A stretch of 64,000 nucleotides of DNA from Scolanthus callimorphus (Eukaryota > Cnidaria > Anthozoa > Actiniaria > Edwardsiidae). Positions 2,939 to 59,905 of this stretch are shown piece by piece. The notes under the pieces were generated by a model that was not told where the DNA came from, ran no database searches, and was given only the letters and a program-made list of their open reading frames with translations. The number at the start of each line of letters is the position of its first letter. Position 1 is the first letter of the stretch. The stretch spans positions 33,649,492 to 33,713,491 of the forward strand of contig CM066914.1 in the NCBI GenBank assembly GCA_033964015.1, written 5' to 3'. Both the position numbers and the translations under genes were made by a program.

Positions 2939-3349
2939 ATCGGAATTCAAATATAACGCGATACGGCCTAGCGCCGAAGTACGGTGGGTTGCACTGAAGA
3001 GTGCAGGCGTTTAAGATCTAGCCTGTACGAAACAGACTTGTATGAATAAATCCACCAGAAATGTTTAAGGTCCAGCCTGCACTTATGTTATTATTTAATT
3101 ATATATTAATGATATTTTTTATCCAGTGGCTGATCCATGGGTTGGTGGCATGGGGGGTGCCCCCCTTTTGAGTCAAGATTTTATAAGATAATGTCTGAAA
3201 CTTGAAATTAATGCTTTTTCCTTCACCATGTTCTATACAATATGTATTTATTATATAGACACAAAAACATAGCAGCTGAAACGTGTAACGCTCATATACA
3301 TTGTTTTAGTACCAAGTTTGAATACATACATACATATAGTTTATTTAAA
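2939..3349. repeat. Non-coding flank ending in a LINE tail
   Basis: No gene seen. The last ~35 bp (tandem CATA, then AGTTTATTTAAA) are the reverse complement of a LINE 3' tail. That tail resumes at 15,826 (ATTTAAACACGGTGAAATC), showing that the element between them was inserted into it. Confidence 0.6.
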
Positions 3350-3864
3350 CACGAGCGATAGGATAGTATACATCAGTATTATTGTGTAAACCGACGAGTT
3401 TTGTGTGTAATAAATCAATTGAGATGGGTTCGTTATTCAGCTAGCAAAACTTCACGAATTACCCTGAAAATGAGTCAATTTATACAGCAAAAAACTACTC
3501 GAAAATACACTTCGAATTGTTTATCTAGTACTAAATACATTTATTTTTTGCTTACCGGTTTGTATGAGATGTTTTTCCCCTTTTAAACGAAGAGCGGATC
3601 CGTTGTGTATGCTCCCTGTTCAAGTGACGCGCCGCTAAGTTAGGTATTCGGCCTAACCGACACGCAACGTAACTTAATCGATAACCAACGCCTTTTACCC
3701 ATACAAGAGAAAAGAGACAGGGTAGGCAACGGAGCTGGATACCATTGTCTTCTCGTCAGCCAACTCGCTTAGTTCGCATGTGACAGTTGCTTAGGGCCAG
3801 TGCTGAAGGATTTGTACCTTCATGACCACCTACGCCTCAAGTTTGCTTGTCAACACTCCACTTG
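3350..3864 (+). repeat. Left terminal inverted repeat
   Basis: About 515 bp, nearly identical to the reverse complement of 15,321-15,825. The first bases are CACGAGCGATAGGATAG and the inner end is CAACACTCCACTTG. It contains a short open frame (3401-3586) also present in the right copy; no protein family is evident. Confidence 0.92.
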
Positions 3865-4179
3865 TGTACACAAAGATTCCATTTAATCCCAATTAGCCGT
3901 GTCCTCGTTTGTAATGTTTTCGTCTTCAAAGGTCAAGCGCGTGTCACTTCGAAACTAAAGATTCGTATATGGCTGTTTTAAACGACGAGCAAACGAGAAT
4001 TATACAATTGATTGAAACGGGGAATAATATATTTTACACGGGCAAGGCGGGGAGCGGAAAGTCCACCGTGATTAAATAGTTTCAGGCAAAGAAAGGAACG
4101 AGGGACGATGTTTTTTACACAGCACCGACGGGGAAGGCGGCTCAGGGTGTTGGAGGGATAACGGTACATTCATTCGCTG

Positions 4180-4893
4180 GTAAGTATAAATCATACGTTT
4201 GTAACCAACCATAGCTTTGAATAGAACATTTGCCGATATTTTGTAGTGGCAACGATTACTAATGGTAAAAGACTTTCCCTTACCGGTCTTGCGTTAAACG
4301 CGCCACACATTAATGTCGAGGAATTATACAAGCACGGGTCGTCTCGTTTTGCTTGCGCTCTACATAAATTCAAGTGAGGGTCGCAAAAAAAATAGTTTGA
4401 TCTCAACAACGAAAAGTTTAGCAAACAACGGCGCTGTTTGCGTACAGATCGAGATTTAGCAATGACGCGTAGCAAATCAACTTTTATCATAACATGTTTT
4501 ATCAAGTTGATTAATCTACAGTAGACATTGGCCTTTGCGGAATTCTAAATACCCTTTATATTCAGATATGAGCACGTACCAGAAAACAGCCCGTCACCTT
4601 GTGATAAAAAGTTTTTAATTGTTTTCTTTCTCAAAGTTTCTCGATGAAATGGAGAGAAGACTCCGTAATCTTCAAATTCGGGGCTCAGCTATATACTTCG
4701 TTGCGGGCTACCTGTGTTGCACGTAGACGCGCAAAAAGTAGTTCTAAAAGAACATTCACTATTGTTCTCCAACCCAACAACCCCCCCCCCCCCCCCCCCG
4801 CCCCGTCTTCTACACTTCCTGAATCGGCCCCTGTTTCTTGCCTTTTTCTGCATCCTATATTTAAAAATCAACGAACATCTCTCTTTCTTATAG
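4180..4893 (+). other. Helicase intron 1
   Basis: 714-bp intron bounded by GTAAGT and TTATAG; the flanking coding exons join in phase through a known helicase segment. It contains a long poly-C run near 4782-4800. The minus-strand open frame at 4191-4505 has no supported content. Confidence 0.6.
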
Positions 4894-7019
4894 GTATACG
4901 ACTAGGGAATGAAACACTAGATAATCTACATCGTTGTGCCTACCAACACCCAGCGGCGATCAAACGATGGAGGAAGTGCAGGCAACTGATCATCGATGAA
5001 GTGTCTATGGTTAGTGCGTCTTTGTTGGATAAGTTAAATTGTATTGCTAAAAAAGTTCGGGATTCTGATTCTTCAGCTCCCCCCTGTCACCCCTCCTTTT
5101 GCTTTAAATAAAGAAAAACTGTGTTTTCAAGCAGAATGTTGGACCTCACTTGCACCACTGCAAGTAACACTGACAAAGGTAATGAGACAATCTAATGCAG
5201 AATTTATGGATCATCTAGCGAACGTAAGATCGGGTAGTATATGTGAAGGCACTCTTGCATTTATTCGGAGTCTTAAAAGGCCAATTATAGAAAATGGAAC
5301 AGAAGTTTCGATTGAAAAGACTGTGACTTTGTTTTCAAAGCGTTTCGATTGCCTTATGTTCAACAATGATCTGCTCAACCAGCTTCCAGCAACCGACGAG
5401 AAAGAATACAGGGCGATCGATTCAGGCGTCGGACGCGATCGTCTTGATTCTCTGTGTCAAGCTGCGCGAATTGTGCGACTTAGAGTAGGCGCCCGTGTCA
5501 TTTTGTTAAAGAATTTATCGAGGACACTGGTGAATGGTATTTGTGGTACTATGGTAGGGTATTCTTATAATCGGCCGGTTGTCAACTTCGATAACGGGGA
5601 AACCACATGCGTTAAAGAAGTTACTTTTAGCGTTCAAACAGGGAATGAGCCTGAGATGGTTGCTACTAGGGTGCAAGTACCCTTATCCCTTGGTTGGGCA
5701 ATAACCATCCATAAAGCCCAGGGGATGACTATAGAATTTCTTCGGGTTTTCTTATCCAACTTATTCACTTACGGGCAAGGGTATACCGCTCTCTCCAGGG
5801 GTGTGTCTCCTGATCGCGTACAGGTTTTAGATGTAGACACGAGTTTTACAAAACATAAAATTCCGTCGGATATCTCCGACTTCTATAGAAACGTGGTTCC
5901 AGTGTTGGAGATTCCACTACCACCCTCTAGAACAATTGTTTCCATCCCTTGATGACGAATTTGTCTTGATTCAACGTGGAGACGATCAAAGAAACGTTAG
6001 TAATCTACTACATATAGATGAAAGAGACACGCTACTCGACATAACAGATTTGGCAGTAGACCCGCCGAACGGTGTCTTTGCCGACATCAAAAAACAACTC
6101 GAAGAGTCTGCAATTCATCATGGGACGAAAGCAAATTTATCTATTTGTTATGCAGAAGACCATGATGCAGTATTTTTGCCACCAGTAGAAATGTTTCTAT
6201 CTTGCGTTTTTAACGAAATAATCAATTTGACCGACATAATGATCTCTGAAAGAAACGTTGTCATTGACGGCCTCTTAGATAAAACAAAGTTTGAATCGGT
6301 TGTCACACCAGGGCTTCACAAACTCTTGCTGTCCAGGGACACTATTGGTAAGTGGAACTCTGTGTGTAACTCTCTGGCAGCAAATCACGAGAGGTCTATA
6401 CCAGAGCCACGCCTAATCATGACACTTCTTATCCGGCAGACATTTCGGAGCACATTGTCAGAGCTTTACCATTTGGCAAAGGCAAACAACATCATACAGA
6501 CAACGGCAAGTGCAAATGAAAACAACGGATACAGCGAGCTTACTCCAGAGATGAAAGGAACATTGCGCTACGTTGCGGGATGGGCGCTCAGAAAAGAAAA
6601 ACTAACTTCATCGAAATACATAGAGCGCAATTTAAACAGGCATTCTAAGGCAGTCCAGAAAATGATAGATGACGAACGAAGTACCTTATCATTGCTTTCT
6701 GGCTTACAGCAGGACAAAGGAGTACCGTCCATAGTCACTGAAAGCATGGAACGCCTCATGCAAAAAGATAGAGGTGGCTTGACTAACGTCAGTGATGGAC
6801 TGTACCAATTTTTCGAGCACGTCCAGGAAAAATGCAATTCTGTTTTTAACCTTTCTATAGTTAATAGGTCAAATCCTCACGTCGCTGTCGCTCATGCAAG
6901 AAATGAAGTATTAAATGCTACGTCGATAATCGAAGAGTGGAAGAAGCTTACAGAAAATGGAAACGATGCAAATAAACCAGCAGGTATACTTTTTATTTAC
7001 AGAACATAATATAAAATAT

Positions 7020-7565
7020 TGGCCAATAAACCCCTCGTAATACTATCACAAATCCCGCAATTAGGGAGCGGTCATTATTCATTTGGGGGGAGGGGAGGGG
7101 TAAATTTGGGGGGTGGGCTACGATTTTTTGGTCGCCGGATAAGAATATTTTAAAAGTATTCTGTGTTTGTTTGTGCTGGATATCCATGTATTTAAGATAG
7201 ATTTTACTAGTATTTCGAGCAATTTTTTTTACATTTTTGGGGGTCTCTTTGTGGCGAGGGCCACGATTTTTGGGTCAAGATTTTTGGGCCAAAGTTTTAG
7301 ACCCCCCCCCCCCCCCCCCCCAATGATGAATAATGATTGGCTCCGCTACTCACTATCGACGACGTTCCAGAAGTACGAGAAGCGAAAACGCTCGTGTACA
7401 ACTTTCTAACAAATGGAAGGTTGTATGCTAATGGTTTCTGCTAAAATAAAAACTACCGGTTCTCGTTTTCTATGACTCTAGTCTACTCGGTGGTACGCAT
7501 CTCGTAACATCTATATTGACTCACAGAAAACTCGAAATTATAATTATAGAGCACTCTTGCAACTT
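7020..7565. repeat. Nested repeats in a helicase intron
   Basis: The intron between the donor at 6984 and the acceptor at 7644 holds two layers. The outer repeat (ACTATCACAAAT... and CTACTCACTATC...GAAAACGCT) is shared with 25.43-25.70 kb and 26.0-26.3 kb. Inside it is a MITE at about 7066-7344 with imperfect inverted ends (GAGCGGTCATTATTCAT and ATGAATAATGATTGGCTC) and a long poly-C tract. Confidence 0.55.
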
Positions 7566-8916
7566 GAAAATGCAGATACGCGGAACATTCTTACGCTTCA
7601 TAGGGGGAAGCAGAGGAAGTAACGTTTCGTATTTTTTTATTAAGCTGTTGAGGACGAAAATGAAGCCGATGAATCAGATCAAGAAGTGGAAGACGATGAC
7701 GCGGAAACGAATCTTGAAGATGAAGACATGGAAGGTGAAATAGAATTGGAAGGTGGCATGGCTACAACATGTGCAACAATCGATTCATCTACAAATTCGG
7801 CAGTATATCCTACAAGTGCAGTGAATATGACAGACGGGCAGAGGTACAATGCTATTTGTAGTATCCAAAATCCATCGGTATACAGGCGTCTTCTCAATAG
7901 ATACCTTAATGCAGTGCAGAAGTCTTTCAAAAAAAAACTTATATCGTCTTTGGGAAAAGAAAAGACGCAAGCCCTCAGGACTAGAGTCTCTGCTTCACAA
8001 ACACGCCAAGCGGGAAAACAGGTCGATACCATCTTATTTGATGACATAATATCTGATAACAGCCCTGATAAAAGCAAGGCACATTCCGTTGTCAAATATT
8101 TTGCTTTCAAAGGAGACGGAGCATTCAAGAAGCTGTCTCGAAAAGAGCTGATGCTGTTGTTTATAGCATACGGGGTACATACATACATAAAGTTTTATTT
8201 ACCCACGCTAGCCACAAACAACAAAATCACAAAAAGCGGATTTGCTGATTTCCGTGTGGGGCGTGCCAGCCATATAGAGAGGTGGCGTGCAATACACGCC
8301 TTAAAAAGTGTGACTTGATATCTAGTTTGCGCGAACGTCTCTTGTGTATGAACAGCATCCATTGCTCCGGATTGCCAACCAAGGAATGCTTGGAAATGAT
8401 GGGACAGAATGGGGGCTACAGCAGAGTTCTAGCTATGAGAGACGAGCAGAGATTACAAGTAGACCAACAGTCAAGAACTGAGGAGGAAAGTCGGCCGTTA
8501 GACCAGCAGATAATACCAGGAGACCAGGACGTCGTTCAGCCGATAGACCAACAGCTTGGGCAAGGAAATCGGGAAGCAGGTCGACCGATAGACCAGGGGC
8601 TAGGACCAGAAAATCAGGAAGCAGTTCGGCCGAGAAACCAACAGTTAGGAACAGAAAATCAGGAAGGGAATCGGCCGATAGACCAGCAGTTAGGACCAGG
8701 AAATCAGGAAGCAGGTCAGGTTAGAAAGCGAAAACGTCCAAAATTTGTACCATTAGGCGACGATGCTATTCTATTACAGCAAGACCTCCGCGAAGGCAAA
8801 ATCACTGCACATCATTGCAGAATAAGAGCTACCGCGAGCTGAATGCGAAAGGGTATGACGTCGATGCTGCTCAGATTAGGCGTTGGTACATGCGCAAGAG
8901 CAAGGAAACAGCATAA

Positions 8917-9509
8917 TTAGTGGTAATAAGGCGAACAGCAGTTCTTCAGAGGTCAACAGAAATAAAAAATAAGAATACCTTAAATAATCTGAACATTCAT
9001 AATAGTCTTCAAGCAGTATTGAGTCCTTAGTTGCTCAAGCGAGTTTCACCGTTTCTGCGTTTGTAAGCTGGGATCTAAATAATAGAGAATGTGATAGCCA
9101 GAAATGGATATGTACATATATCTAAATCTTTCTACCTGAATGCCAACACATTTGAGCAGTTTCCCTTTTTAACCTTAAACGGCTGAAGCTGAATGATGGC
9201 ATTTACACCGCTCCCTGCAAGACAAAGTAACACACTTAGCTAGTAGCAGGCCCGGAGGAGAGGAGTTTCGAGGGGTTCAAAGAAACGAGAAAAAATGCTA
9301 TATATCAGGTTTACCAGGGTTATTTTCTGAAAACAAAAAACTGAGGACAACGAAACCCCCTCCCAACAAGAATGCGAGCTACGGGTCTGAATAGTCGGCT
9401 TCTTTCACTTAAAAAATTCGAGTAGTATAAATACTGAATTTACAATTATTAATTTCGATTATCACAAGGTATGCAAAACTCCGTATAATACTTATAAAGT
9501 TAATCTTAC
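8917..9509. other. Interval between the two convergent genes
   Basis: Lies between the 3' end of the + helicase gene and the last recognised - transposase exon. I see no further confident exon; a C-terminal transposase exon could be hidden here. Confidence 0.4.
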
Positions 9510-10299
9510 CATATTGAGAAACAGTCGGGTTGTTGTTCTGTCCATGCATACTTCGTGACTGCCCAAAGAAATTTTCTAATAAGTCCTGATTTGTTCTCGC
9601 TGTGATGATACCACAACCAGGAAAGTCGTCAAATAAGTTCTTGCATAACTCTTTGAAGCCTAGCACCATACTAAAAATATCGAATCGTGTCTGATCACAG
9701 AGGAACTGCTTCTTGCGCTTGCTCGCTTGTAGATGTGTTTGTCCCTGCGTGTCTGCTTCCCATTTTTGCAGCCATTTTATACTTTCTCCATTCTCTTTAA
9801 AACGGGTATCGTCAAGTGATCTGAAATTAAGACTCGTGAGTTAAATGACGGATCTTTCGCGAAAAAAAAATTATTTAGCAGTCCAATTCCCAATTTAATA
9901 AGGGTTTTTATGGGTTTCTGCTGATCTCAAAATCAAGATCATCATTTTTCCACATAACGACAAAGGCATTTGTCAGTCAGAAGAGCAGTGCATTTTAAGT
10001 TGTCAGTTATTGAAACGGCTTATTTTGGTCACTTGTAAGAAAACATATACATGAATACTTACGTATAAGGGGCAAGATGTTTAAAGTTCTTCAGCAGACG
10101 ACTGGTTGTTTGAAGGAATTCGACTGTCTTTTGAACGGAAGATCCAGATCCATCTTTTTTGTGTAGGTGTCGCTGGTAAACCTGAGTCATGAATAAAGAA
10201 TAATACTTCTGAGTTTCAGAATTGTAAGGTACTGGGTGATAAATAAGACGTTTTACTAGTAAATATCTTATTATATACCCTTTGTCACCCGGCAATGCC

Positions 10300-10618
10300 A
10301 ATTGTACGATTTAACAATTAGTCGCCGAAGGCGACGTGATTATCGGCGAATAGTCCCCGAGACGAAGTCGAGGTGGCTCTTTGCCGATAATCACGGAGCA
10401 TGAGGTATTTTGGTATAATTGCTCAAGTGATTCATAAGGTTTTTAGGCAAAACAAACACTGTTTTTAGGCGAAAAAACGTATTTGTGTTTGATGTTTCAC
10501 AATCATAACAAAACTCAAAACCTTTCAATGTTATAGGTGATTTAGCAAGAGAAAACGAACCTCTCAACCAATTAGCGCGCGGAAATTCTTATTAATCACT
10601 TGAGTAATTGTACTAATA
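10300..10618. repeat. MITE in a transposase intron
   Basis: Between two in-phase transposase exons. It contains the inverted pair GTCGCCGAAGGCGAC...TCGGCGA and GCCGATAATCACG, and further out AATTGCTCAAGTGATT against AATCACTTGAGTAATT. Boundaries are approximate. Confidence 0.45.
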
Positions 10619-13381
10619 AACATTAGTAAACAAGGTAGCAAAACACATTAGAGTGTGTATGTAACGATTCGAGTTCCATACTTTTTTACCTTCATTAGCT
10701 CAAGCATGTCTTCGCCTAATACATCATCAGCAAGGTAATTCCTCATTTTATTTGCACTGGTTAGCACAAAATGCTCTTCGGAGAACCTTCGATGTGTCTG
10801 TAAGAAGTTGGTTGTAACATCGTATTCAAAGGCTGCATGCAGATGCTCCCAAAGGACACTTTGACCCTCAACAGTATAACAGCGAGCAGCCTTGGGATTT
10901 AGTGAAGACTTTTCTAAACCATTCCTCAATTTCTTGAAGTTATGCTAAAAAGGGGAACATGAAACGTCAAAATACCGATAGGAAACCTCCCTCCGTGTGT
11001 GATTGCTTCTATATTGGAGTTCCGTGATTTAGTTGCGTTGCGTGGTAAAATTTGCAATCTACTCTGACCAAAAGTCGACAATTGCATTAATATATACTTT
11101 GCTAATATGTACTTTAAACTTACCGATGGATCCATGATTAAACTAAGAGACTTTCCATTGGCAGGATTAACCGTCGTAAAACTATGAGCTTCAGGATCTT
11201 CTCCAGCAAAGTGCATTTGCACAAACTTCCTGTTGCAGCCAGCTCCATCGCAGACTACTGCCCGTACTGAAAATCCATGTGTATGAAGCACATCTATACA
11301 CTGCCAGAAAAGCTCGTACAGCTGGAATGTTGAGGCTTCTGTGGTTGGATAATGGGCAACAGGAAAACGAAAGCCGGTATTTCCAAGGAAATAGAATTGC
11401 AGTATATGGGACACCAAGTGCGGTGTTTCATCTCCTGTTTTTGACAAAGAAAGAACTTCCTATTAAAATAATCAGACAAGCCTCACCTTGCCATGGTTGC
11501 GCTATGTTGTGCAAACAAAAGATGACATTTATTCTTTTCATTCGAATACTCTATTCTATAGAAATATGAGGGAAAGAAAGCAAGTTTGCATAATAACGAT
11601 CAACTTTTCAAAAAGGTGTATAGTTTTTGCAGTTGGATTTTTTCCTATTTACACGGAAAGAATAAAATTGCATTAAACTTTTACCATTTTGAAGAGCTGA
11701 AACACTTTCGCACGCTTCTCCTAAACGACAAATGCCGACCAGTTCCCACTCTCCGTTCCGTTGCCTTAGCTCCAGATCACTATGCGGAAACATAAAAGCA
11801 TTGTTCCGCATACTTACAGATATTGCAAATACGTTTTAACCTAGAACGAACGCCCTGGTACTGGATTTCTGCATTTTACAGCGGCGGGGCTAGTGAAAAT
11901 GTCGGACGAAAATTTGCAAATTTCTTTGAAAATTTAGGCCCTTTCGCCCCAAAATCCGTCCCTGTTTTATCGCCAATGGTATTCATCAACAATGGTTACC
12001 TGAAGAAACAAGGGTGAGAGCGTGCTGTGCTGTTTTCGAAGCAAAAGCGCTGACACCATTAATTTTTGTAAAGCCATGATCCATGTACAAGATTGTGACA
12101 AGATTGTGTGTAGATTCAGAACAACTAAAACAAACCAGTGTGCTTTATGGCATGGCATTGCTTCTTTGTACTTTGCTTTCATGAATATGCTATACATACC
12201 TGAATCGACATTTCGTCAAATATTAACACACCGCATCTACCAAAAGAACCAAGTCTCTGATCATCGGCTTCTCTTCTCATCCAGTACATACGATCAGATG
12301 CTAAGCCAGGGCTACTCTTAACAGCATTTTTGTAGTATTTCAATAGCCGTCCTGAAGGCAGTTTTAGCAGGCCGCTTTCTTGTAGTCCTTCATACCCTTT
12401 TTTAGAACGATGCCATAGCTGAAGGCATGTCTAGATAATACTGTAGCAAAAGAGTTTATTTGATGAGATCTTTCTCCAAATAGTTCCGTCTATAACAATA
12501 GTACGGCGTACAAATATCCAGTGTTACGTTATTTAAAGTACACACACCTTGAATGCCATCGCATGCTGTGCTTGCAGTTTTTCTTCTGGTATTCCCACAT
12601 GGTGGCCATCTCAGGACTATTTGGAAAGTACGTTTCAACTGGATCTTGTAAAGACTGAAAAATCTTTAGAAAAATAGGGGAGAGAGAGAATAGTGTAAAA
12701 CCACTCATACAGAAGAATTACACAAAGGTTTGATTTTCACTGGCCTTTGCTTTGCCCCATTTTTTGCCATTGAATATATAAAACGACATTAATGTGTAAC
12801 AATAGCTTTCAAACAAATTATTCGGGGACACGAAAATTATCGGGTGTTCCGAAGTCCCAACCGGACCTGTTTATTATGAAGGCCATCTTAACTTCAGCAC
12901 ATCCTCGTTGTCGTGCATCTGAAGTTGGATAGAACGTTCTTCGCATGCCCTACTAACTTGCCTCCACTACCTTTCTCTGTTTTGGGCGTTTTTAAGCTCC
13001 CTTTTTAGGTTTGCCGTCGGTTCGGTAGCAGGTTTATTGACACACAATGCATTGAGGTGATGTCGTAGAGCTGAGCAGCTGGGGCAGACCAGGAAATAGC
13101 TTTTGTATGGCAGAAATTCTCGAAGACAGTTAATGGATCTATGCGTAGTTAAGAGTTCCCCGTTCACCAGTGTTTTTCCAAAGCCCGGAGGCATCTTTTA
13201 CCAGTCCAATACCTTTGTAGATATCATTTGTGAGGCCTTCACAAGGTTTGAGCTTCTGTAAGGTCGCTAAAATTTGCGTTACATTCCCATCTACGGGGAT
13301 TCTTGAGGACAAATTGAGTGAAGCAGGTGAAATTACCGTGCCAGATTTTTCTGCCTTCCACCAAAAGTCTTCGGCAACTTT

Positions 13382-15024
13382 CACTGGACGAAAAAATGGA
13401 TTCACTCATGCGTAAAGTAGTGGTAAATGTGAAGTGAATTCCATATTTGCTCATCTTCGCATACATTTGCGCAAATGCAATTTTCGAATTCGCATCATAT
13501 TTACCATCATACAAATTTGGTGAAGACCGCTTTTACATCAGATTTGCTCGGTTTACAAAAGGGTATGCAAACACGTATATTCGCATCGACTGATAACACC
13601 ACGTAAATATAACTGCAACAATCGCGTTTGCTTTATGTTTGCGGAATGTTTACGTGTGCCAAAGTTCAATGTTAGACTGTGAGCAAATGTACTGCAAATA
13701 CTAGCTTGCATTATCATTGCACAAAGGCAAATTTAATAGAGAATATCATGTTTACATCCCGGTTTACATATTGTTTGCACCGTTCATATTCAAGCGTAGT
13801 TCACGGGATAACCAGTATTTATTTGCAAAATGAAATATAATCGAACGTACAATCTATCTGATCTATGGTCAATCTAAGTTCCTAAAACAGCACTGCTTTG
13901 TGGCAGTCCAGTAACTTGAAGTTAAAACGAACGAGTTTGTGGGTTGGCGGTCGTCACAAAGACATTTATCTAAACAACACTCGAAGCCGAGATTTGCATT
14001 TGCTGCCAAAATTAACAATAATTCCACCGGAAATTGTCAAATTGATACAGTATAAATGCTGATAGTAATTTATAAGCTTTATTCTGTGCTGTGCAATCAG
14101 AAATAAAGCAGGAATACTTGTTTAAAGCTTTCCCGGTTTATAACCCAACTGCGCAGCTGAAACAAACATGGCGAATGCGAAGTCGAATCGACTAGAATAA
14201 GTTTCTCAGGTTTTCTGACTGCACAACTCAAATTAAAGCCTATAAATAACTAGCAGCATTTTGACTTTGTCAATTTTCGGTTGAATTGTGTCTACTTTCG
14301 GCAGCAAAAATACACGAAAGTTTCTTCACATGAGTGTTGTAGATAAACTTCTGTGGCACATAAACCCGTTTATTTTACCTTGAAATATAACCGTCCTGTC
14401 CTCGCTGGATTGCCACAAAGCAGTGCCATATGAATGTCCTATTGCTTGTGAAATTAGCAATCCTTTACATGGGGTACTTTTGTTGCGGGTACACCCCTGC
14501 AAACGCAACAATTTACGTGATAAAGTTCTATGACATACGGTCGAAAGTCTGCCTTCAATGGCGCTCAAATTCGAATGAATACAAACCGTCACTCGATCAG
14601 AGTGGAAACCTAAGCCATAGTCCAGGTCACGTGGGATTATCAGACGTAAACCGCACGTACAGTGTTGCTAGCAGAGCGCATTTGAGGCAAACATCGAATT
14701 CGCTTAACGTTCGCATTGAATTTGCGCGGTATGTTATATTTGATATTTGACTAGTCGAGCAAAACTAGAGCAAAGATGAAACATATTTGCTATGAAACAA
14801 ACATGCAGCGTATATGATGCAAAAATGCACATTCTCCTTCTCAACTAAAAGTGTAGCAAATTTATAGCAAACTTTAAACTTTACTTGACAATTGCTCAAG
14901 GACTAAACTTCATGATTGCTGCCATGTTTGCTCAAATTCACATTCGAGGCAAATATAGAGCACCAAATTCGCATCAAATTTGCTCGCACGACAAACCTGA
15001 GCAAATCCATCATTTCGTCCAGTG
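13382..15024. mobile_element. 1.64-kb CACTG-ended foldback element inside the transposase gene
   Basis: Ends are CACTGGACGAAAAAATGG and, inverted, CCATCATTTCGTCCAGTG, flanked by the 3-bp duplication TTT. CACTR ends with a 2-3-bp duplication are typical of the EnSpm/CACTA group (family knowledge). The interior is non-coding and unusually rich in short TTTGC/GCAAA and TTCGCAT motifs near both ends. It interrupts the first recognised transposase exon: joining the flanks gives LLVKVAEDFWW. Confidence 0.7.
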
Positions 15025-15320
15025 TTTAACCAAGAGATGCTGATGTTGGTTTCAAAACACAGCCGTACTCTGCTCTGTCTCAGTGTAAGTGCTCCATCCA
15101 TTAAAATAGCCACACGATTTCATTTCTAGAAAATTGCTGCGCAACAAATCGAGATTATTTTTCGAAATAACATTCTCTTTGTCAATAAACCTGGTTCGCA
15201 GCGCGATGCCGTAATATATATATCTTTTGCGAACGTTAAGGTAAAAGACTGATAATATGTGCCAATGCATTCAGGCCCGTAGCCAGGAGGGGTTCTGGTT
15301 GTGCGCCCCCCCCCCCCCAC

Positions 15321-15825
15321 CAAGTGGAGTGTTGACAAGCAAACTTGAGGCGTAGGTGGTCATGAAGGTACAAATCCTTCAGCACTGGCCCTAAGCAACT
15401 GTCACATGCGAACTAAGCGAGTTGGCTGACGAGAAGACAATGGTATCCAGCTCCGTTGCCTACCCTGTCTCTTTTCTCTTGTATGGGTAAAAGGCGTTGG
15501 TTATCGATTGCGTGTCGGTTAGGCCGAATACCTAACTTTGCGGCGCGTCACTTGAACAGGGAGCATACACAACGGATCCGCTCTTCGTTTAAAAGGGGAA
15601 AAACATCTCATACAAACCGGTAAGCAAAAAATTAATGTATTTAGTAATAGATAAACAATTCGAAGTGTGTTTTCGAGTAGTTTTTAGCTGTATAAATTGA
15701 CTCATTTTCAGGGTAATTCGTGAAGTTTTGCTAGCTGAATAACGAACCCATCTCAATTGATTTATTACACACAAAACTCGTCGGTTTACACAATAATACT
15801 GATGTATACTATCCTGTCGCTCGTG
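15321..15825 (-). repeat. Right terminal inverted repeat
   Basis: Inverted partner of the left repeat, ending CTATCCTGTCGCTCGTG. The inner edge abuts a poly-C run at 15,305-15,319. A few substitutions separate the two copies. Confidence 0.92.
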
Positions 15826-15870
15826 ATTTAAACACGGTGAAATCATCAGTTACAAGTAAAAGTTAAAAAT

Positions 15871-16329: not shown

Positions 16330-17345
16330 TTACTGTCATCGCGGTATCGACTTTTCTAGTTTTGATGACGTCATCGATGACGTAATGGCACGTGATCTTG
16401 GTGGTGCATCCCCCTGCTTCCAAAAAACTTAATCCAAGTTTGGTCTCCTAGCAATGTTCCCTTCTCGAGATAATGACTTTTCCAGTTTTAATGACGTCAT
16501 CGATGACCTAATACCGCATGACGTTGGCGGTGCTCCCCCTTTCCACCAAATAACTTTACCCAAGTTTGGTCACCTAGCGATGTTACCTTCTTGAGATATT
16601 GACTTCTCTAGTTTTGATGACGTCATCGATGACGTCATGCCACGTGACCTTGGTGGTGCACCCCCTTGCCTCCAAGATAACTTTACCCAAGTTTGGTCAC
16701 CTAGCGATGTTACCTTCTTGAAATATTGACTTCTCTAGTTTTGATGACGTCATCGATGACGTCATGCCACGTGATCTTGTTGGTGCACCCCCCTTGCCTC
16801 TAAGATAACTTTACCCAAGTTTGGTCACCTAGCGATGTTACCTTCTTGAGATATTGACTTCTCTAGTTTTGATGACGTCATCGATGACGTCATGCCACGT
16901 GACCTTGGTGGTGCATCCCCCTTGCCTCCAAGATAACTTTACCCAAGTTTGGTCACCTAGCGATGTTACCTTCTTGAAATATTGACTTCTCTAGTTTTGA
17001 TGACGTCATCGATGACGTCATGCCACGTGACCTTGGTGGTGCACCCCCCTTGCCTCCAAGATAACTTTACCCAAGTTTGGTCACATAGCGATGTTAACTT
17101 CTTGAAATATTGACTTCTCTAGTTTTGATGACGTCATCGATGACGTCATGCCACTTGACCTTGGTTGTGCACCCCCCTTGCTTCCTGGATAAATTTACCC
17201 AAGTTTGGTCACCTAGCGATGTTGCCTTCTTGAGATATTGACTTCTCTATTTTTGATGACGTCATCGATTACGTCATGCGGCGTGACCTTGGTGTTGCAC
17301 CACCCCGTACCTCCAAGATAACTTTACCCAAGTTTCACAACTGTT
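16330..17345 (+). repeat. Satellite array A, eight 126-128-bp units with CRE-like palindromes
   Basis: The core palindrome begins at 16,365, 16,491, 16,617, 16,744, 16,872, 17,000, 17,128 and 17,256, so the period is 126-128 bp. Most units contain TGACGTCATCGATGACGTCA, two CRE/ATF-type TGACGTCA octamers, followed by CACGTGACC (an E-box-like CACGTG) and ACCCAAGTTTGGTCACCTAG. Single or diverged copies occur at 23.8, 29.2, 32.7 and 42.6-43.05 kb. Confidence 0.92.
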
Positions 17346-29400: not shown

Positions 29401-29440
29401 GCAGGTCCCAAAGAAAGAAGGAAACAAGAAGAAAAAGGAA
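29401..29440 (+). CDS. Split open frame interrupted by the Penelope-like element
   Basis: After a TTGCAG acceptor-like site (29,399-29,404) the frame reads VPKKEGNKKKKE. Removing the element and one 16-bp duplication continues it at 32,222 as LNKKFTALANVITD before repeat sequence begins. It could be a lysine-rich exon of a host or element gene; no family recognised. Confidence 0.25.
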
Positions 29441-29963
29441 CATGAACAACAATAACCAAGGGTTGAGATTTATGTTAAACGCCGTGGAAAAATGGTGTTT
29501 TGCTGACGTTTCGAGCGTTAGCCCTTCGTCGGAGCAAAGAGGGAAAACTGAGGGAGTGGGGCTGTATATAAAGTAAATGTAGAGCCGTTGCTAGGCAACA
29601 GATAAACATTCGGAATGACTAAAGGCGATAATTGGTTAAGAATAACAAAGGATGCCATGGGCCATTGAAATCGCAAACTAGTGAAAAAAGTAAAGAAAGA
29701 GGAAATATGATGAGATGTAGAAAACTAGGTATAAGAGAAAAATTCATTGATGCCGTGGGGTGATCGGCAACCGAGTGAAAGAATAAGTCTATTCTCTTTA
29801 TGGAAGCGAGAATGATTAGACCCGTTGTGAAGAGAAACACCGCAAACAGTCATATGATCTCTAGTGTGACCGGGAAGATTGAAGTGTCGGGCCACTGGTT
29901 TGTTACGGTCATTTTTCCTCACATCATTGCGATGCTGGCAAAAGCGCGTAGAAAGCATTTGAC
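29441..29963 (-). repeat. Inverted 5' arm (partial copy of the element's 3' end)
   Basis: Reverse complement of 31,630-32,152, carrying an antisense copy of most of the GIY-YIG frame. It lacks the last ~50 bp present at the right end (after GTTCATGTTC). Confidence 0.85.
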
Positions 29964-29999
29964 GATCACCCCACTTTGCCGATCACCCCACGGCATCAA

Positions 30000-31611
30000 T
30001 TTCAGCAACCTTTCTAGGGAAGAGATGTCAGCTCTTAGATCTCTCCGCATGCGCAAAGACGTTGTCATTAAGCCTGCCGACAAAGGCGGCGCGGTGGTCG
30101 TTTGGCGCACCGACCTGTACAAACAGGAAGCCGCGCGCCAACTCTCCGACACTACCTTCTATTCTAAACTTAAGAAAGACCTCACGACCACCAACCAGAA
30201 TACTATTTCTCAAACTATTAAGAAACTTATCTCAGATCATGAGCTGCCAAAGACTGCTACCAATCTTATCGTTACTACACCTAGAACGTCTAATATCTAC
30301 TTTCTGCCCAAGATCCACAAGGCCAACAATCCGGGGCGCCCTATTGTTTCTGCATGTAATTGTCCTACAGAGCTCATTTCGAGCTATTTAGACAAACAGA
30401 TGGCCCCTTTTGTCAAAGCACTTCCCTCTTATATTAAGGACACCAACCATGCTCTCCACATTTTCAATAACTTTTCTTTTCCTGCCGATAGTGCGCATAG
30501 GTTTATCTTCACTATGGATGTTAAGTCTTTGTATACAGTCATTCCCAATGACGAGGGTCTAAAGGCCCTTAAACACTTCTTTGACCGCAGGAGTGTCTTA
30601 GAACCTAGCACTGCCACTCTACTCAGACTAGCTGAGTTAGTCCTCACTCTTAACTGCTTTTCTTTTTCAGGCGATTTTTATCAGCAAGTCAATGGAGTAG
30701 CCATGGGCACTAAAATGGGACCCAGTTACGCCAACCTCTTCGTTGGCTACATCGAGGACCTAATTTTTCAGCAATACGATGGCCCCACGCCTCATTTCTA
30801 CGGACGCTATATTGACGACTGCATTGGCGCTACATCGTGCCCTAAGCCTGACCTCGAGCGCTTTATTTCTTTTGTCAACAACTTTCACCCAGCGCTCGAA
30901 TTCACATGGGAAATTTCGGAGACCTCTCTCACATTCTTAGATATCAATCTTACTATTAACGGAGATCGCTTAGCTACTCCGGTTCACTATAAACCTACTG
31001 ATTCTCATGGTTACCTGTTGTTCTCTTCATCGCACCCCGCGCATGTCAAGACAGCTATCCCGTTCTCCCAGTTTCTCCGACTCCGTCGCTTGTGCAGCGA
31101 AGAGGCCGATTTTATGGCTAAATCGGACGAAATGAGCGAGTTTTTCAGAAATCGTGGTTACCCTGACAATGTCGTCGCTAACGCCCTTAGCCGCGCCCGT
31201 TCGATCGACAGAACCACAGCCTTGCAGCCATCAGAACCCACTCTAGAGGATAGGATTCCCTTCCCCCTTACTTTTCATCCTACTAACCTAGCAATCAAGC
31301 ATTTTGTGTCCAGGAACTTTAAGATCCTACAAAGGGACCCGGAAACAGCCGCAATTTTCCCCAAGCCGCCTTTGTTCTCTTTTAAGCGGGACCGAAACTT
31401 GCGCAATTCTCTTGTTAGAGGCGTTCTCACGCCTGGCGGTCTACAACCCGGCACTTTCAAATGTACTAGATCAAAATGCACAACGTGTGATCATGTCGTT
31501 TCCACCACCCGGATCATCGGCCCTAACGGCGAGTCTTTTAACATCACAGATCACTTTGATTGCACCACCGCCAACGTCATATATTGTATTACTTGCTCCC
31601 TTTGCCCATGA
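30000..31611 (+). pseudogene. Penelope-like reverse transcriptase
   Basis: About 537 codons homologous to Penelope-like reverse transcriptase. Motifs are DVVIKPADKGGAVVVW, NIYFLPKIHK and GRPIVSACNCP, then FTMDVKSLYTVIP (catalytic Asp), NGVAMGTKMGPSYANLFVG, and FYGRYIDDCIG (YIDD catalytic box), then TFLDINL. The frame extends upstream to 29,800, but that part is antisense of the inverted arm, so the true N-terminus is missing. It ends in a Cys-rich connector (CTTCDHV...CITCSLCP), where a one-base shift separates it from the nuclease frame. Confidence 0.88.
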
Positions 31612-31868
31612 TCTATATAGGACAAACCGGTCAAATGCTTTCTACGCGCTTTTGCCAGCATCGCAATGATGTGAGGAAAAATGACCGTAACAAACCAGTG
31701 GCCCGACACTTCAATCTTCCCGGTCACACTAGAGATCATATGACTGTTTGCGGTGTTTCTCTTCACAACGGGTCTAATCATTCTCGCTTCCATAAAGAGA
31801 ATAGACTTATTCTTTCACTCGGTTGCCGATCACCCCACGGCATCAATGAATTTTTCTCTTATACCTAG
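31610..31868 (+). pseudogene. GIY-YIG endonuclease domain
   Basis: Starts with MIYIGQTGQMLSTRFCQH (the YIG variant of the signature). It then has NKPVARHFNLPGHTRDHM and ends HGINEFFSY. This nuclease nicks the target for primed reverse transcription in Penelope-like elements. It overlaps the upstream stop by one base and was presumably fused before the indel. Confidence 0.85.
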
Positions 31869-32264
31869 TTTTCTACATCTCATCATATTTCCTCTTTCTT
31901 TACTTTTATCACTAGTTTGCGATTTCAATGGCCCATGGCATCCTTTGTTATTCTTAACCAATTATCGCCTTTAGTCATTCCGAATGTTTATCTGTTGCCT
32001 AGCAACGGCTCTACATTTACTTTATATACAGCCCCACTCCCTCAGTTTTCCCTCTTTGCTCCGACGAAGGGCTAACGCTCGAAACGTCAGCAAAACACCA
32101 TTTTTCCACGGCGTTTAACATAAATCTCAACCCTTGGTTGTTGTTGTTCATGTTCACGTCTCCGCCGACGCAGACCACCTAGTTTTCCCGTAAAACTAGT
32201 CATACCAAGAAGAAAAAGGAATTGAACAAGAAATTTACAGCATTGGCAAATGTCATCACAGACA

Positions 32265-32639: not shown

Positions 32640-33650
32640 ATCGAGTTGATTTTTGAACGTCACGGGCATTGTGGATCTTTTTGATGACGTCATTGATGAC
32701 GTAAGGGCACGTGACTTTGGTGTAGAGTTCCTCTTATGGTCTTTGAAAGTTTGTCCAAGTTTGGCTTCTATAGAAGCTACCCTTCGGGAGATATGATTTT
32801 TTCTTTATTTTTCTGGTATTAAACCTATAGCGTACGCCGTCCGTCCGTCCGTCCGTCCGTCCGTCCGTCCGTCCGTCGTCCGTCCGTCCGTCCGTCCGTG
32901 TACACATGGGAACCCTGTGGTATGCAAAGAAAAAATTATATCTCCTCAAGGGAACACGCTAAGACAACCATACTTGGGATATTTTGTCTATGCCACAAGG
33001 GGGGTGCTGTAACCCGGACACGTGATATGACGTCATCGATGACGTCATCTATGCTTAAAAAATTAATATCTCGTGAAGGGAAGACTCTAATACAACCAAA
33101 CTTGGGTTGTATAGTCTAGACCACCAGATGAGCGAAATGAAGTGGTCACGTGATATGACGTCATCGATGACGTCATCTATGCTTAAAAAATGAATATCAC
33201 GTGAAGGGAAGACTCTAAAACAACCAAACTTGGGTAGTGTAGTCTAGACCACCAGATGAGCGAAATGAAATGTCACGTGATATGACGTCATTGATGACGT
33301 CATCTATGCTTTAAAAATGAATATCACGTGAAGGGAAGACTCTAAAACAACCAAACTTGGGTAGTGTAGTCTAGACCACCAGAAGAGCGAAATGAAGTGG
33401 TCACGTGATATGACGTCATCGATGACGTCATCTATGCTTAAAAAATGAATATCACGTGAAGGGAAGACTCTAAACCAACCAAACTTGGGTAATGTAGTCC
33501 AGGTCACCAGGTGAGCGAAACGAAGTGGTCACGTGTTGTGACGCCATCGATGACGTCATCTATGCTTGAAAAATCAATATCTCGTGAAGAGATCGTCCGT
33601 CGTCCGTCCGTCCGTGTACACATGGGATCCCTGTGTCATTTCTTGAAAGT
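32640..33650 (+). repeat. Satellite array B, ~128-bp units, with (GTCC)n
   Basis: Palindromic cores begin at about 33,027, 33,155, 33,282, 33,410 and 33,538 (127-128-bp period). Each is followed by CATCTATGCTT and AACCAAACTTGGGTA. A diverged unit at 32,680 precedes a (GTCC)n microsatellite at 32,838-32,898. A short second GTCC run ends the array at about 33,596-33,615. Confidence 0.9.
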
Positions 33651-41939: not shown

Positions 41940-43060
41940 GCTTGGCTATTTGATTTTAGTCAAATCACACTAGTGGTCTATTATCAATGCTGCATTCTGA
42001 TTGCTTGAGCTACTAGTAGGCTATAAAAGTTATAGCCTTATTCCTCGGGCTCGAGGAATAATTTTTAATTAGTAGAGTGCTTGCAGAATGGGTATCCCAA
42101 GCTTTGAGTTTGAGGGGATTATTTAATGTTAAAACAATATAATCCAAAAAGTTTCGCAGAAGTAAGTTTGCAGCGATCATAAGTAAACAATTTTATTCAT
42201 ACATACATACATGTACAAAACAGTACATGTGGAATTTTGTTTTGACAATCATCAACTTTTTTTCCGATTCCAAGATTTCCGATTTAAAGTAACATAGGAG
42301 GAACATTGATTGATAATGTTTTGCAGAACTCACCGTGTTATTAGTTTTCGAATCTACGTTTTAGTGGCGTGTTTCATTGCCTGTTAACTCGAGGACTGCC
42401 GCGCAATAAACCACCACCATCTTTGTTTTCGAGTGAAAAGTGGAGCAGAGAACTGGGAACTAGGCAGACCAACCTCGTCCCCAGGGTCTTTTCGGTCGTT
42501 AAATAAGCGTAAACACGAATGATCAATTGTGTGCGTGTGTGTGAGAGAGGGGAGGGGGGGAGGGGGGATGTGTCACTCGCTCGCTTGCTCGAGAACGGAA
42601 CATCCTAGATGACCAAACTTGGATAAAGTTATCTTCGTGGCAAGGGGGTCCAGCACCATGCTCAACTGACATGACGTCATACGAAGTCATCATAAAATAG
42701 AAAAAAAAGTGATATCTCGAGAAAGGTACATCGCCAAATGGCCAAACTTGGGTAAAGTTAATTTCGAGGCATGGGAAGTGCACCACCAAAGTCGCGTGTG
42801 ACGTCATCTAAACTAGAAAAATTGACATTTTCGGAAGGAACATCGCGTGACCAAACTTGGTTAAAGTTATCTTTGTGGTAATAGGTCCAACACAATAATC
42901 ACGTGGCATGACGTCATCGATGACGTCATTGATATCTCCCGAGAATGAGCATCGCTAGGTGACCAAAGTTGGATTAAGTTATCTTCGAGGCATGGGAGGT
43001 GCAACACCAAGGTCACGTGATATAACGTCATCGATGACGTCATCACAACTAGACAAATTG
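41940..43060. repeat. Repeat cluster including reversed satellite units
   Basis: 41,940-42,070 repeats the GTCAAATCACACTAGTGG element of 35.9 kb. 42,600-43,060 holds three to four diverged satellite units in reverse orientation (GACCAAACTTGG...GTTATCTT...ACGTCATCGATGACGTCAT). Confidence 0.6.
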
Positions 43061-45961: not shown

Positions 45962-46899
45962 GTACTGGAAATCGTGCTGAAGTTGCACGGGCAATTGGAC
46001 CCGTACGTCATGTGCATCAAAGATGGCAGACAGAAGAGGACGATCTTATCGCACGGGCAAGAGCAGTTGGGGTGAAGTATGAGTATGCACCCATTGGTGA
46101 CGAGGAATCAGAAACAGAATTTGGAAAGCGTCGCCGTAGAAATCGTACAAAATACGGAAAGAGGAGCAGAGACTGATTGAAACTGTTGGTGATCTACCAC
46201 AGCCCCCACCATTTGGCTCTACACAACAGGAGGAGGATGCGTATCAGGCTATTCGGTCATTCGAAGTCGAGCAGATGACATACGGTTTTGGGTTATGTGA
46301 TATCTGCAAGGAACGGAAGTTACAGACAAAGAACAATGTGTGCAAAAGATGCAAGAGTGATAAGCATCAAACGAAGCTTTGGTCTCATGAGAATAGGATG
46401 GACCCTGGACATGTACCTGAGGAATTGATGGGTCTAAGTGACGCTGAACAGATGTTAATAGCAAGAATAGCTCCCGCTATACGAGTACATCTGCTTAAAC
46501 ATGGGGGTATAGCATCCAAGGGCCACTGCATTGCATTTCCACAGGCTGTACAAGAACCCGCGACTGTTCTTCCGCGTTTGCCGACTGAGGTGGAGATAAT
46601 TCGAGTGCGGAGACAAGGAAAAGACGACACTCACAAAGATTTTAGAGTGCGAAGACATAAAGTAGAGAGTGCAATCCGATGGCTGAAGGACAATAATCCT
46701 GCTTACGTTGACATAACAATCGATGACAATCGCATTCAGCGTCTACCTGAGGACGGTGAGCTACCGGAACTAAGGACGGTTGAGTTTACTGAGACGCAGC
46801 ATGGAGATGATCAAGGGCCTGCACCAGGACAGTTAGATAGTGGAAATGTCGACAACGAAGATGATGACACAGTGTCAGGGATTCTTCTTCCTGAGCCTG
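45962..46899 (+). pseudogene. Helitron exon 10: DUF6570-type region
   Basis: Opens in phase 1 after TTTTTACAG (GTGNRAEVARAIGPVRHV). A one-base lesion near 46,160 moves the frame, after which it reads KEEQRLIETVGDLPQP and on to a Cys finger (CDICKERKLQ...CKRCKSDK). Next come ENRMDPGHVPEEL, EQMLIARIAPAIRVH and KGHCIAFPQAVQEPA. It ends LLPEPG at a GTGAGT donor (46,900). This block is the usual N-terminal part of Helitron/Helentron proteins in animals; its biochemical role is not established. The in-frame stop is at about 46,175. Confidence 0.8.
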
Positions 46900-48493
46900 G
46901 TGAGTTATTCGAATCTTATTTTTTCCTCGAGGGCACGGTAACGAATTTGTTCTTAAAGCGCGCGGGGGCAATACTTTCCTATCTCTGACCTAGGTCACAG
47001 TAACCATTTTCGCGCGCTTGTTTTCATCGATTTACCGATTTACCGGCTTTAGGTCGGTCCGTATAGGGAAAAAACTGTGACCTCGGACTGGAAAATGTTG
47101 ACCTCGGCCTCTGGCCTCGGTCAACATTTTCCAGCCCTCGGTCACAGTTTTTCCCTATACGGACCTCCCAGCCGGGAAATAACATATATATATATACAAG
47201 ATATTCTTATTCTGTACAGTTTTCGGTTCAATCTTTGCGTCAAGAATGTGACTGGTTATTTTATAGTTTTCTTTTAAATGGTCGTGCAATAAAATAATTG
47301 ACAATTAACATTAGTATCTCGATTCACCCTGCCACTTTTTGTTGTTGTGAGACGTCAATATTCTGTGGTATTGAGGGCTCGAAAAGATTCAAGTGTTTTC
47401 GCACGAGTGTTTCGTTTCATTGTCAATAGTTAGAAATAACAGTTATCTATATTTCTCGCAATATCTAATGGCAGAAAGAGTTTAATAAAATTGTGAACAG
47501 ACAATGTTCGAGCATCTAATTTATTATTTTTCGTCCCATTGTTTGTATTCCATGCCTTTTTCTTCAGTTATTATTCCTTTGAGGATTTTTTGTAGGCCGT
47601 TTTTTTTTTCAGTCGCTAGCAGCCCTGTCGTTTTTTTGTGGCTGCGAAACTCCACTCTTATTTCACGTGAACAGCAAGGCCCTCCCACTTCGACAACGCA
47701 CCTTTCCCCCAGTTAGTTGAGCATGCTGGCCGTTTGTATTTCCCCCAAACTAGCCGTCAATATTTTGTGGCATTGCCGTCTCAAAATCGTAATTAGTTTA
47801 CAAAATTGATTGCGTTTTCATGATGTCCGCTGGTCTAAATTCCATGAAAAAAAAAAACGAACATCATCGTCGCTGTTCTACACGTGCCTTTTGTTTTTGT
47901 GGGAGAGCATAGGAAAATGTCTGGTGAAGTTTGAGCAGTGATTTGTTCAATGTATCAAGCTAATAAAAGATGGATTTACCTATCTCGTAACCATGGAAAT
48001 CGTCGTCAAGAAAAGCGCGCACTCGCGTGCTCAAGAAAGAGGCGGGAAAAAGTTCACTGAGCTGAAAAGGTCGGCTATTGTCTACTACAATTGAAATAAA
48101 ACGACCGAAAACAGCTTATTTTAGGCCTAGGGCATACGTCGGATTAAGGTCGAACCGATTACATTTTTTTCAAAAGATACCGGCTCATTATACTTTCAAA
48201 TAACAAATTATCTATTGTTTTAAATGTATTCGACGCGACTCTAATTCGACGTATGCCCTAGGCCTTACTCACTTTGGACATGAGGGAGGCCTCTTTGTCG
48301 GGGTTTGTGATTGATATTGCACAAAGCTGGATTTCCAGTTATTATTTAGGCACTCTATCTCTGACTTTCTGATTTTTTCACGAAATTCAGAACAGCTGTC
48401 GAACTTGTCCATTCGCTATTTCAGATCGACGCTCCAGACTTTGAAGCACACACTTGTTGGCACCGGCGATTTTATGCTACCTTTTTTTTACAG
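46900..48493. other. Helitron intron with two foldbacks
   Basis: 1,594-bp intron (GTGAGT...TTTTACAG); the join LLPEPG|VNVQGQ is in phase. It contains a MITE related to 60.46 kb (TTTTTCCTCGAGGGCACGG at 46,920), a near-perfect hairpin at 47,056-47,165 (48-bp arms, GGTCCGTATAGGGAAAAAAC outer part), and a foldback at 48,121-48,267 (TAGGCCTAGGGCATACGTCG / CGACGTATGCCCTAGGCC). Confidence 0.7.
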
Positions 48494-51400: not shown

Positions 51401-52418
51401 CGGATTTGACACTGCAGTAGAGTTGGTCCAAATTGTGAGGCAGTCTGAAGCAGAACTACAGCTGCGAGAAGTACTGACGTCTATGCGCGACTACACCACT
51501 ACGATGGAGCATGTTCAGTGGCTTCAGAAGTTCCAGTGGAGCCATCTCCTCAGAACGCATGGTGAAGAGTTGCTACAGAGAATGGATGAGCAGGGTTTAT
51601 TTGTGTTCCCGACGCATAGACTTGAAGGGGAACGAAATAGAACGAAATTACTAGAATGTAATCAACGTGAAGACCATCCAGTAGCCAGGGTCAAAGCTGT
51701 AAACCATGGTACGAGACATGCGCCGAAGGCGGACAGCAACAAGGCTGGTGGATTGCTTAAAGTCGTTTACCTGTGCCGGGACAGTAAAGTGATGCTCGTG
51801 GCAAACCTAAAGGCGGAATGGGGCCTATACAATGGAGCAGTCGGGAGTGTGGTAGATATTGTGTATCTCGATGGACGCAGACCGACGGACGACCCAACGC
51901 CACAACCGGATTATGTGTTAGTGCGTTTCAGTGGCTACAAGGGACCGGCATTCATCACTACTGACCCAACTGTTGTGCCAATTGTACCGATAAGCAGAGC
52001 GACAGATTGTGCATGTTGCAGACGTGTGCAGATTCCGCTACGATTGGCATGGGGAATGACGATCCATAAATGCCAAGGGATGACTGTAGGCGAAGGAGAG
52101 CCGTTCAGATATGTCGTCATACATCCAGGCGATCATGCGTTTGAGGCGAAGAACCCAGGAGCACTGTTTGTGGCGCTATCTAGAGCAAAGTCTGCAGGAG
52201 GAGATGGAAGAGATCCCGACTTTGCATTTCATCAGGACGTTCTTGTTAACATGGACAGATTTCGCCCCGTTACTACGCCAACAGTACAGTCTCGACAGCG
52301 AGAGATCGAAAGGCTACGTGCGTTGACTACACAAAGCCGTAGGCGAGAATCTATGCGCAGAGTGTTTGAAGACGAGACCTTCCACGAGCTACTCGATTGG
52401 GCGGACTCTCTAGCATGA
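48494..52418 (+). CDS. Helitron RepHel exon (HUH nuclease plus helicase)
   Basis: The exon opens VNVQGQIEAALNRI and reads to EFTTPYF. The rest of the protein is in the -1 frame from a run of seven T (about 48,656-48,662), restoring FFSMAFPCLFPTGEGDYH. Thereafter the frame is open for about 1,250 residues. The HUH motif is HWH (49,332-49,340, in RGQIHWHQLSW). The two catalytic tyrosines are in YVCGYACK (about 49,962). The helicase has Walker A GTGGTGKS (about 50,928), GDE for Walker B (about 51,180), DDVQLPPV, AWGMTIHKCQGMT and ALSRAK. Rolling-circle transposition is known for the family. All visible catalytic motifs are intact; the Walker B reads IGDERSM where IDE(I/V)SM is usual. Confidence 0.9.
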
Positions 52419-56058: not shown

Positions 56059-56665
56059 GTTGTCCCTATATTTGTTCCTTATATTCTAACATCATCTCAA
56101 TTCATAGATAGTGGGTCACGCAAAGCGGATTTGTGGATGACTGTAGTACATGTAGTATGGTCTACTCTTACAAGTGTTTGTATTGTACTTCCTTCTTTGG
56201 CACGGGTAATCTATAAATCTAATAACCTAATTTCTAATAAAGCAAATCAGAATGCAGAAAAGCCATTGTACATTTCTCGACCTTCCCATCATCCCCTGCG
56301 TTTAAGTATTTATCTAAGACTAGCTGATTACTCGTGAATAAATTCCCGTCATTTCTATGTTCTTAGCATACACATTCGCCTAAAGACTCATATGTATACC
56401 AACCCTGTTTTAAGAGATAAATTACTGTTTTTCAAACCTCCCATCTCCTTTTCATGTACTCTTTATTTATATACCGTTTCCAAGATACGGTATTTGGAAA
56501 AAGCAAGAAAGCATGGGTAAATATTTCTTTGAATTTCTGTTAATCATTATAAACACACATGCTTAGAAATGTGCTCAAATGTAATGAGTTTACCTGTGGT
56601 TGCGATTACTGTCTGAAATCAGATCAAACAGTAGTAGATACCCCCATTATCCTTTGCGCTTGAAG
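56059..56665. other. Region without a supported gene
   Basis: The open frame 55,927-56,337 crosses the MITE border and has no domain. Nothing else recognised up to the duplication. Confidence 0.35.
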
Positions 56666-56953
56666 CTTATACGCTTTTTGGGTGACAACGTTTCCCGAAA
56701 ACGGTATATAAACTAGCCGTATTTATTTTGTTTTATTTTAGAAAGTCCAGCACAGATGATTGAGACTTTGTGACGCCCTCTATTTATTAGCTATTGCTGA
56801 ATGCGGCGGTTAGATGTTTCACCAGGATAGGTCATACGATAAGAAGAATAACAAACTGGATTCCAGGATGATTTCCATCGATTCAAGGATGACTATTGGC
56901 TATGTTGGTGTTATATTGACTGATTGCAAGAATGTCAATATCATCTTGCTGGA

Positions 56954-57724: not shown

Positions 57725-57782
57725 GACCTCGCGTGTCCGTTCGCGTAGTTCTCCGTGGATCACGTCAGAGCTAAAGGATATT

Positions 57783-59883: not shown

Positions 59884-59905
59884 ATCTATCTATCTATCTA
59901 TCTAT
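59830..59905 (+). repeat. (TATC)n microsatellite tail of the LINE
   Basis: About 18 TATC units with one interruption. Simple-repeat 3' tails are usual for CR1/L2-group LINEs. Confidence 0.95.

Follow-up and report, generated by a model that had tools for sequence, protein, structure and literature searches.

A P-superfamily-like transposon of Scolanthus callimorphus that also carries a PIF1-type helicase gene

Inverted ends, transposase and helicase

A 64-kb stretch of the genome of the actiniarian Scolanthus callimorphus (GenBank assembly GCA_033964015.1, contig CM066914.1, forward-strand positions 33,649,492 to 33,713,491; hereafter the window) contains, at window positions 3350 to 15825, a 12.5-kb element whose long inverted ends enclose two convergent multi-exon genes, a transposase gene on the minus strand and a helicase gene on the plus strand. 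This gene arrangement had been read from the letters alone in an earlier note, here termed the original prediction, and our analysis confirmed it.

A scan of the window for inverted pairs returned the matching arms 3350-3864 (515 bp, plus strand) and 15321-15825 (505 bp, minus strand), which on alignment differ by 6 mismatches in 505 aligned bases and one 10-bp gap. The element starts with CACGAGCG and finishes with CGCTCGTG, and the heptamer ATTTAAA abuts both outer edges (3343-3349 and 15826-15832) as a target-site duplication; with the base composition of the window, a 7-mer would match at one fixed place by chance with a probability of about 8e-5. With up to three mismatches allowed, the terminal 20-mer was found at these two sites only in the whole window, and 100 shuffles gave a mean of 0.00 matches. 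The left end holds no repeated 8- or 9-mers except one inverted pair. The ends of about 510 bp, the termini and the duplication all agree with the original prediction. Its further claim of a restorable empty site within the tail of a long interspersed nuclear element found support only in part: a reverse transcriptase domain does lie to the left, at 291-1355, but the open reading frame (ORF) at 2630-2932 belongs to no Pfam family. Terminal inverted repeats together with a target duplication of 7 or 8 bp, the latter seen in this one copy, are as expected for the P superfamily. Two other superfamilies were rejected on the same feature: Kolobok elements should have duplicated TTAA, and Academ elements (AcademH) 9 or 10 bp.

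The minus-strand gene encodes TNP-like RNase H N and C domains. Its exons, whose GT/AG splice sites were picked by eye, begin with probable N-terminal exons within 13405-12967, which contain a Cys-x2-Cys stretch (within 13134-13042) and the sequence EDFWWKAEKSG (13372-13340) and gave weak matches only (P0008, E 0.004; P0011, E 0.026). The following exons are at 12663-12548, at 12440-12200 with the first catalytic Asp (DEMSIQ, 12217-12200), and at 11779-11685. The exon 11434-11124 carries the RNase H N domain and the second catalytic Asp (DGAGCNRK, 11249-11226); it is followed by 10944-10690, which covers the insertion-domain region, and 10181-10063, both with edges set by eye, by 9820-9510 with the RNase H C domain (ENFFGQSR, 9576-9553), and by a final exon at 9214-9132 (SGVNAIIQLQPFKVKKGNCSNVLAFR, then the stop).

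The catalytic Asp, Asp and Glu fall in conserved columns, although one relative lacks the second Asp, and the Glu stretch aligns to the P transposase chain 6p5a, in keeping with the P-type signatures originally predicted. The RNase H domain is split by a P-type insertion domain, a mark of the P superfamily, and the P-type fold including that domain was seen on the transposase relative P0001. Membership of the transposase in the P superfamily is thus well supported. No THAP domain was found in two putative N-terminal pieces from the window, where the exons are uncertain, nor in the 6 of 29 relatives scanned. One relative from the group in which these six were scanned, the P-type transposase P0015, showed a sub-threshold match to the RFX DNA-binding domain at its N-terminus (residues 3-50). 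Among viral contigs, none of 123 stretches returned for the transposase alignment proved to be a relative.

The plus-strand gene carries PIF1 and Pif1_2B domains. Its first exon (3969-4179) begins about 100 bp from the left end and is followed by an intron (4180-4893) and a second exon (4894-5069), the reading frame of exon 1 continuing from 4894 onward. We take the following stretches to be the helicase motifs: Walker A at 4041-4067, the DE box IIDEVSM at 4989-5009, QLPPV at 5074, and the HKAQG and ALSR stretches at 5689 and 5776. Compared with solved PIF1 chains, about 15 residues including motif III (...GDFxQ) are absent between KKVR and QLPPV, and the frame changes at this site (5070-5073); the remaining helicase with its 2B domain occupies 5074-5949. 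The gene therefore falls short of the full set of main Pif1 motifs it had been credited with, motif III being the one missing. Read through its lesions, the protein matched PIF1 chains with a best E of 2.1e-62 (human PIF1, 3.3e-58; the Helitron Helraiser, 5.2e-10), and it is 25.8% identical to the helicase of a Helitron in the same window. Judged from its sequence, the predicted helicase belongs to the PIF1 family.

Past a frame change near 5950, the helicase reading frame runs on as a region of 350 residues (5954-7009), fused to the helicase as a C-terminal region, for which a Pfam scan gave no match. Further exons on the plus strand, tentatively placed by eye at 7482-8916, may also be part of the helicase gene; this stretch looks coding by eye, and neither a homologue nor a Pfam match was found for it. 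It includes 45-bp tandem repeats (8476-8717) that read as 15-residue repeats.

Both genes are broken in this copy. In the helicase, a TAG interrupts the frame at 4077-4079, motif III is deleted and the frame breaks near 5950. The transposase has an in-frame TAG (12433-12431), in a column where relatives reaching it have a residue, as well as an out-of-frame joint between 12440-12200 and 11779-11685 at the sites chosen by eye. The copy as read would yield neither protein whole. That each gene contains an in-frame TAG amounts to two cases, too few to signify anything beyond decay. Because the arms differ so little, the copy was probably intact at, or shortly before, its insertion and has decayed since. 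We infer a young copy that decayed where it had inserted, or one mobilised by the proteins of another copy.

Relatives of the helicase and of its C-terminal region

A protein search with the helicase found 126 proteins at E <= 1e-30 among 7275 candidates, the best 120 of which were listed. By far the closest was P0030 (E 1.4e-95, the runner-up having 4.9e-62), an ENA record of a 552-residue prediction on a 10,122-bp contig, which starts at motif III and contains that motif. P0030 spans the helicase and the C-terminal region as one predicted protein; its identity to the window protein is 51% over 294 aligned columns in the helicase and 36% over 228 columns in the C-terminal region. Since one predicted protein holds both parts elsewhere, the fusion is not an artefact of the window locus. 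A search with the C-terminal region on its own gave nothing at E <= 1e-3 among 6557 candidates; this is a weak negative, as P0030, found through its helicase part, was missed as well. The predicted structure of the C-terminal region is of low confidence, residues 279-451 and much of the remainder falling below 50 in the predicted local distance difference test (pLDDT), and a fold search with this model listed helicases among its best 50 rows.

Relatives were also sought among viral and prokaryote contigs. In the viral contigs, 118 of 149 stretches were relatives of the helicase, the best 80 being at most 37% identical; by their identity alone we regard them as probable general Pif1 proteins. 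None of 30 viral stretches was a relative of the C-terminal region. In the prokaryote contigs, 105 stretches included a single relative, from a Bifidobacterium locus (31%).

Two helicase trees were calculated. The first comprised 37 of the 120 listed proteins and two rows from the window; its bootstrap was unsettled, and it carried a warning of long-branch attraction that included the window helicase. For the second, 9 of the 39 rows were dropped as long or distant. In both trees the window helicase and P0030 formed a clade (support 100 and 100) on a long stem, with 2.46 and 3.76 changes per column in the best trees. Four metazoan PIF1 rows grouped together, apart from this clade, and a fifth, from Schistocerca, stood elsewhere. 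Constraining the clade to join the four metazoan rows was not rejected (approximately unbiased (AU) test, p 0.102), so the helicase trees, of the kind the original prediction had called for, supported the kinship with P0030 but no one placement relative to metazoan PIF1. A recent copy of the host PIF1 is an unlikely source of the helicase, given the intron or introns of the gene, the C-terminal fusion of the P0030 type and the long branch away from the four metazoan rows.

A probable single transposon with a helicase of its own

The layout favours the helicase and the transposase being one unit in this copy. If the plus-strand gene stops at 8916, only about 215 bp separate the ends of the two genes. 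A scan of the region between the inverted ends, set to find exact inverted pairs of 11 bases with a spacing of 60-5200 bases and flanking direct duplications of 3-10 bases, returned two pairs (10422-10604 and 13382-15024), neither enclosing the helicase. We consider it probable that the locus represents a single insertion of a cut-and-paste P-superfamily transposon, whose convergent second gene is its own Pif1-type helicase with a fused C-terminal region.

P-type transposases have been studied as enzymes that act with guanosine triphosphate (GTP) and host repair factors, and the element's helicase, by kinship, is presumably a 5'-to-3' DNA translocase. The transposase would have bound and paired both half-kilobase ends, excised the element and joined it to a target cut with a 7-bp stagger, while the helicase would have assisted a step made hard by the long inverted ends. 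The likeliest such step would be strand opening or copying during repair of the excision gap, through which a copy would be regained; alternatively, the helicase might unfold single-strand hairpins formed by the inverted ends. From kinship, and by analogy with the fly P element, at whose donor site a host helicase takes part in repair (PMC7776569), a direct action of the helicase in transposition or in copy regain can be proposed tentatively, with the odds slightly against it. Similarly, it is conceivable, if somewhat doubtful, that a P-superfamily lineage spread over several animal groups, P0030 included, has a Pif1-type helicase dedicated to it, with a C-terminal region particular to that helicase, and needs it to move or to regain copies. 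If true, an element with its own helicase would allow the direct question of whether strand opening or excision-gap repair limits transposition. It would also let one ask whether DDE transposons (P, Kolobok and Academ) acquired helicases more than once, and would add a PIF1 lineage that resides on a mobile element and is distinct from the cell's own PIF1.

Several points weigh against this interpretation. The case is built on a single copy holding both genes, and with motif III missing and both genes broken, function cannot be read from it. The proposed transposition role of the helicase rests on kinship and analogy, and the helicase of P0030 could be a host gene or part of another kind of element. 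No PIF1 domain is listed within the proteins of the 29 transposase relatives themselves, their neighbouring genes lying outside the comparison. Moreover, the boundary scan is blind to imperfect inserts and to those of wider range, so the predicted absence of insertion boundaries around the helicase held only for exact pairs within the scanned distances.

The element's helicase might instead have a different purpose, for example to overcome silencing or to exploit host replication forks for gaining copies, which would be compatible with the identity of the element proposed here. The anatomy ties the helicase to no given step, and the C-terminal region has neither a recognised domain nor a confident model; positive evidence for such purposes is equally absent, and we regard them as rather unlikely.

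Less probable still is a one-off capture, in which an ordinary P-superfamily element acquired a helicase gene of the host or of a different element; confined to this copy or to a small subfamily, the gene would be a passenger with no part in transposition. Only a single copy is known, the grouping with the four metazoan PIF1 rows was not rejected by the AU test, and helicase genes were available for capture nearby, a PIF1-bearing Helitron being located some 30 kb rightward of the element. Against this, the helicase gene contains one intron or more, shares its fused C-terminal region with P0030, and sits with it on a very long branch away from the four metazoan rows; nor did the limited scan show an insertion boundary inside the element.

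Inverted duplications do occur and single loci may mislead, but two unrelated inserts between the arms of a large inverted duplication would hardly explain the perfect 7-bp duplication flanking the arms, the P-type transposase inside the arms, and ends and duplication like those of Galileo; we consider this very improbable. Although the window contains a Helitron with a PIF1 domain (48579-52412), we reject the insertion of a Helitron helicase into a P element as the most improbable origin of all, in view of the far better match to cellular PIF1 than to Helraiser, the low identity to the window's own Helitron helicase, and the absence of a Helitron_like_N domain from the helicase model.

Known systems and neighbouring elements

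Among known elements, Galileo, of the P superfamily in Drosophila, resembles the window element in having a P-type transposase, inverted ends of great length (0.5-1.2 kb) and mostly 7-bp duplications; it differs in a transposase THAP domain and in internal tandem repeats in some ends, and the available parts of its descriptions do not mention a helicase (PMC4168063, PMC3688188). Galileo also rules out the view that half-kilobase inverted repeats are new to P elements. The Drosophila P, Anopheles P and zebrafish THAP9 elements share the transposase fold with insertion domain and the cut-and-paste mode. They differ in their short ends (31 bp in fly P, 27-31 bp in Anopheles and 13 bp in zebrafish THAP9) and 8-bp duplications, and fly P (2.9 kb) and Anopheles P (4.2-7.5 kb) are smaller than the 12.5-kb window element, according to the available portions of both sources (PMC7776569, PMC1562414). 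In these same portions, the review on P elements does not speak of a helicase encoded by the element itself and describes the host Bloom helicase homologue as involved in donor-site repair of the fly P element (PMC7776569), and the word helicase is absent from the Anopheles account (PMC1562414).

Helicases do accompany other DDE transposases. As far as the accessible text goes, KolobokH and Kolobok-1_CCri combine a DDE transposon with a helicase, encoded on the complementary strand in Kolobok-1_CCri, but the helicase is of the RecQ type, the duplications are TTAA and the transposase is of a different superfamily (PMC9587614). AcademH, in the part of its description available, likewise pairs a DDE transposon with a helicase, but has an Academ transposase and 9- or 10-bp duplications (PMC10045372). 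P0030 has the same fusion of helicase and C-terminal region, but is known from its 552-residue prediction only. Helitrons and Helentrons, including the Helitron of the window, encode a Pif1-type helicase. They move by a rolling-circle HUH enzyme and are not known to have inverted ends or a target duplication. The window element was rejected as a Helitron, with no Helitron_like_N domain in 10 element ORFs and the helicase model, and with inverted ends present.

Long inverted repeats in the P superfamily and helicases in other DDE superfamilies are known already. A P-superfamily element with a helicase was not found among the listed matches, covering titles and abstract openings but not Repbase entries. 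The original prediction that a P-type element with a helicase gene and half-kilobase ends was undescribed thus stands in part: the PIF1-type helicase gene inside P-type ends is possibly new, whereas the long ends and the pairing of a helicase with a DDE transposase are not.

Two stretches resembling miniature inverted-repeat transposable elements sit outside the recognised exons of the element. One, at 7072-7336, was found by the inverted-pair scans and has imperfect inverted ends; the other, at about 9247-9389 in the last transposase intron, was delimited by scan and by eye and has the ends CAGGCCCG...CGGGTCTG.

Elsewhere in the window, the Helitron-like element occupies 46140-52415, with a DUF6570 ORF followed by a 1279-residue ORF containing Helitron_like_N and PIF1 domains. 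Separate from the P-type element, two inverted repeats of 526 bp (29438-29963 and 31630-32155; 99.6% identical) enclose, and partly overlap, a 610-residue ORF (29779-31608) with a weak RVT_1 match (31 bits), and a neighbouring ORF (31560-31865) contains an IYIGQTG stretch; 29438-32155 may represent a Penelope-like element that has inverted repeats. At 59903-61847 lie direct repeats, 852 bp long and 99.8% identical, whose joining stretch (60749-61000) is identical to 56665-56916, which adjoins endonuclease and reverse-transcriptase ORFs at 56924-59684. Directly to the right of the P-type element lies a tandem array of about 127-bp units (16345-17335); diverged relatives of the array occur at 42588-43057, and weaker relatives at 33399-33589.
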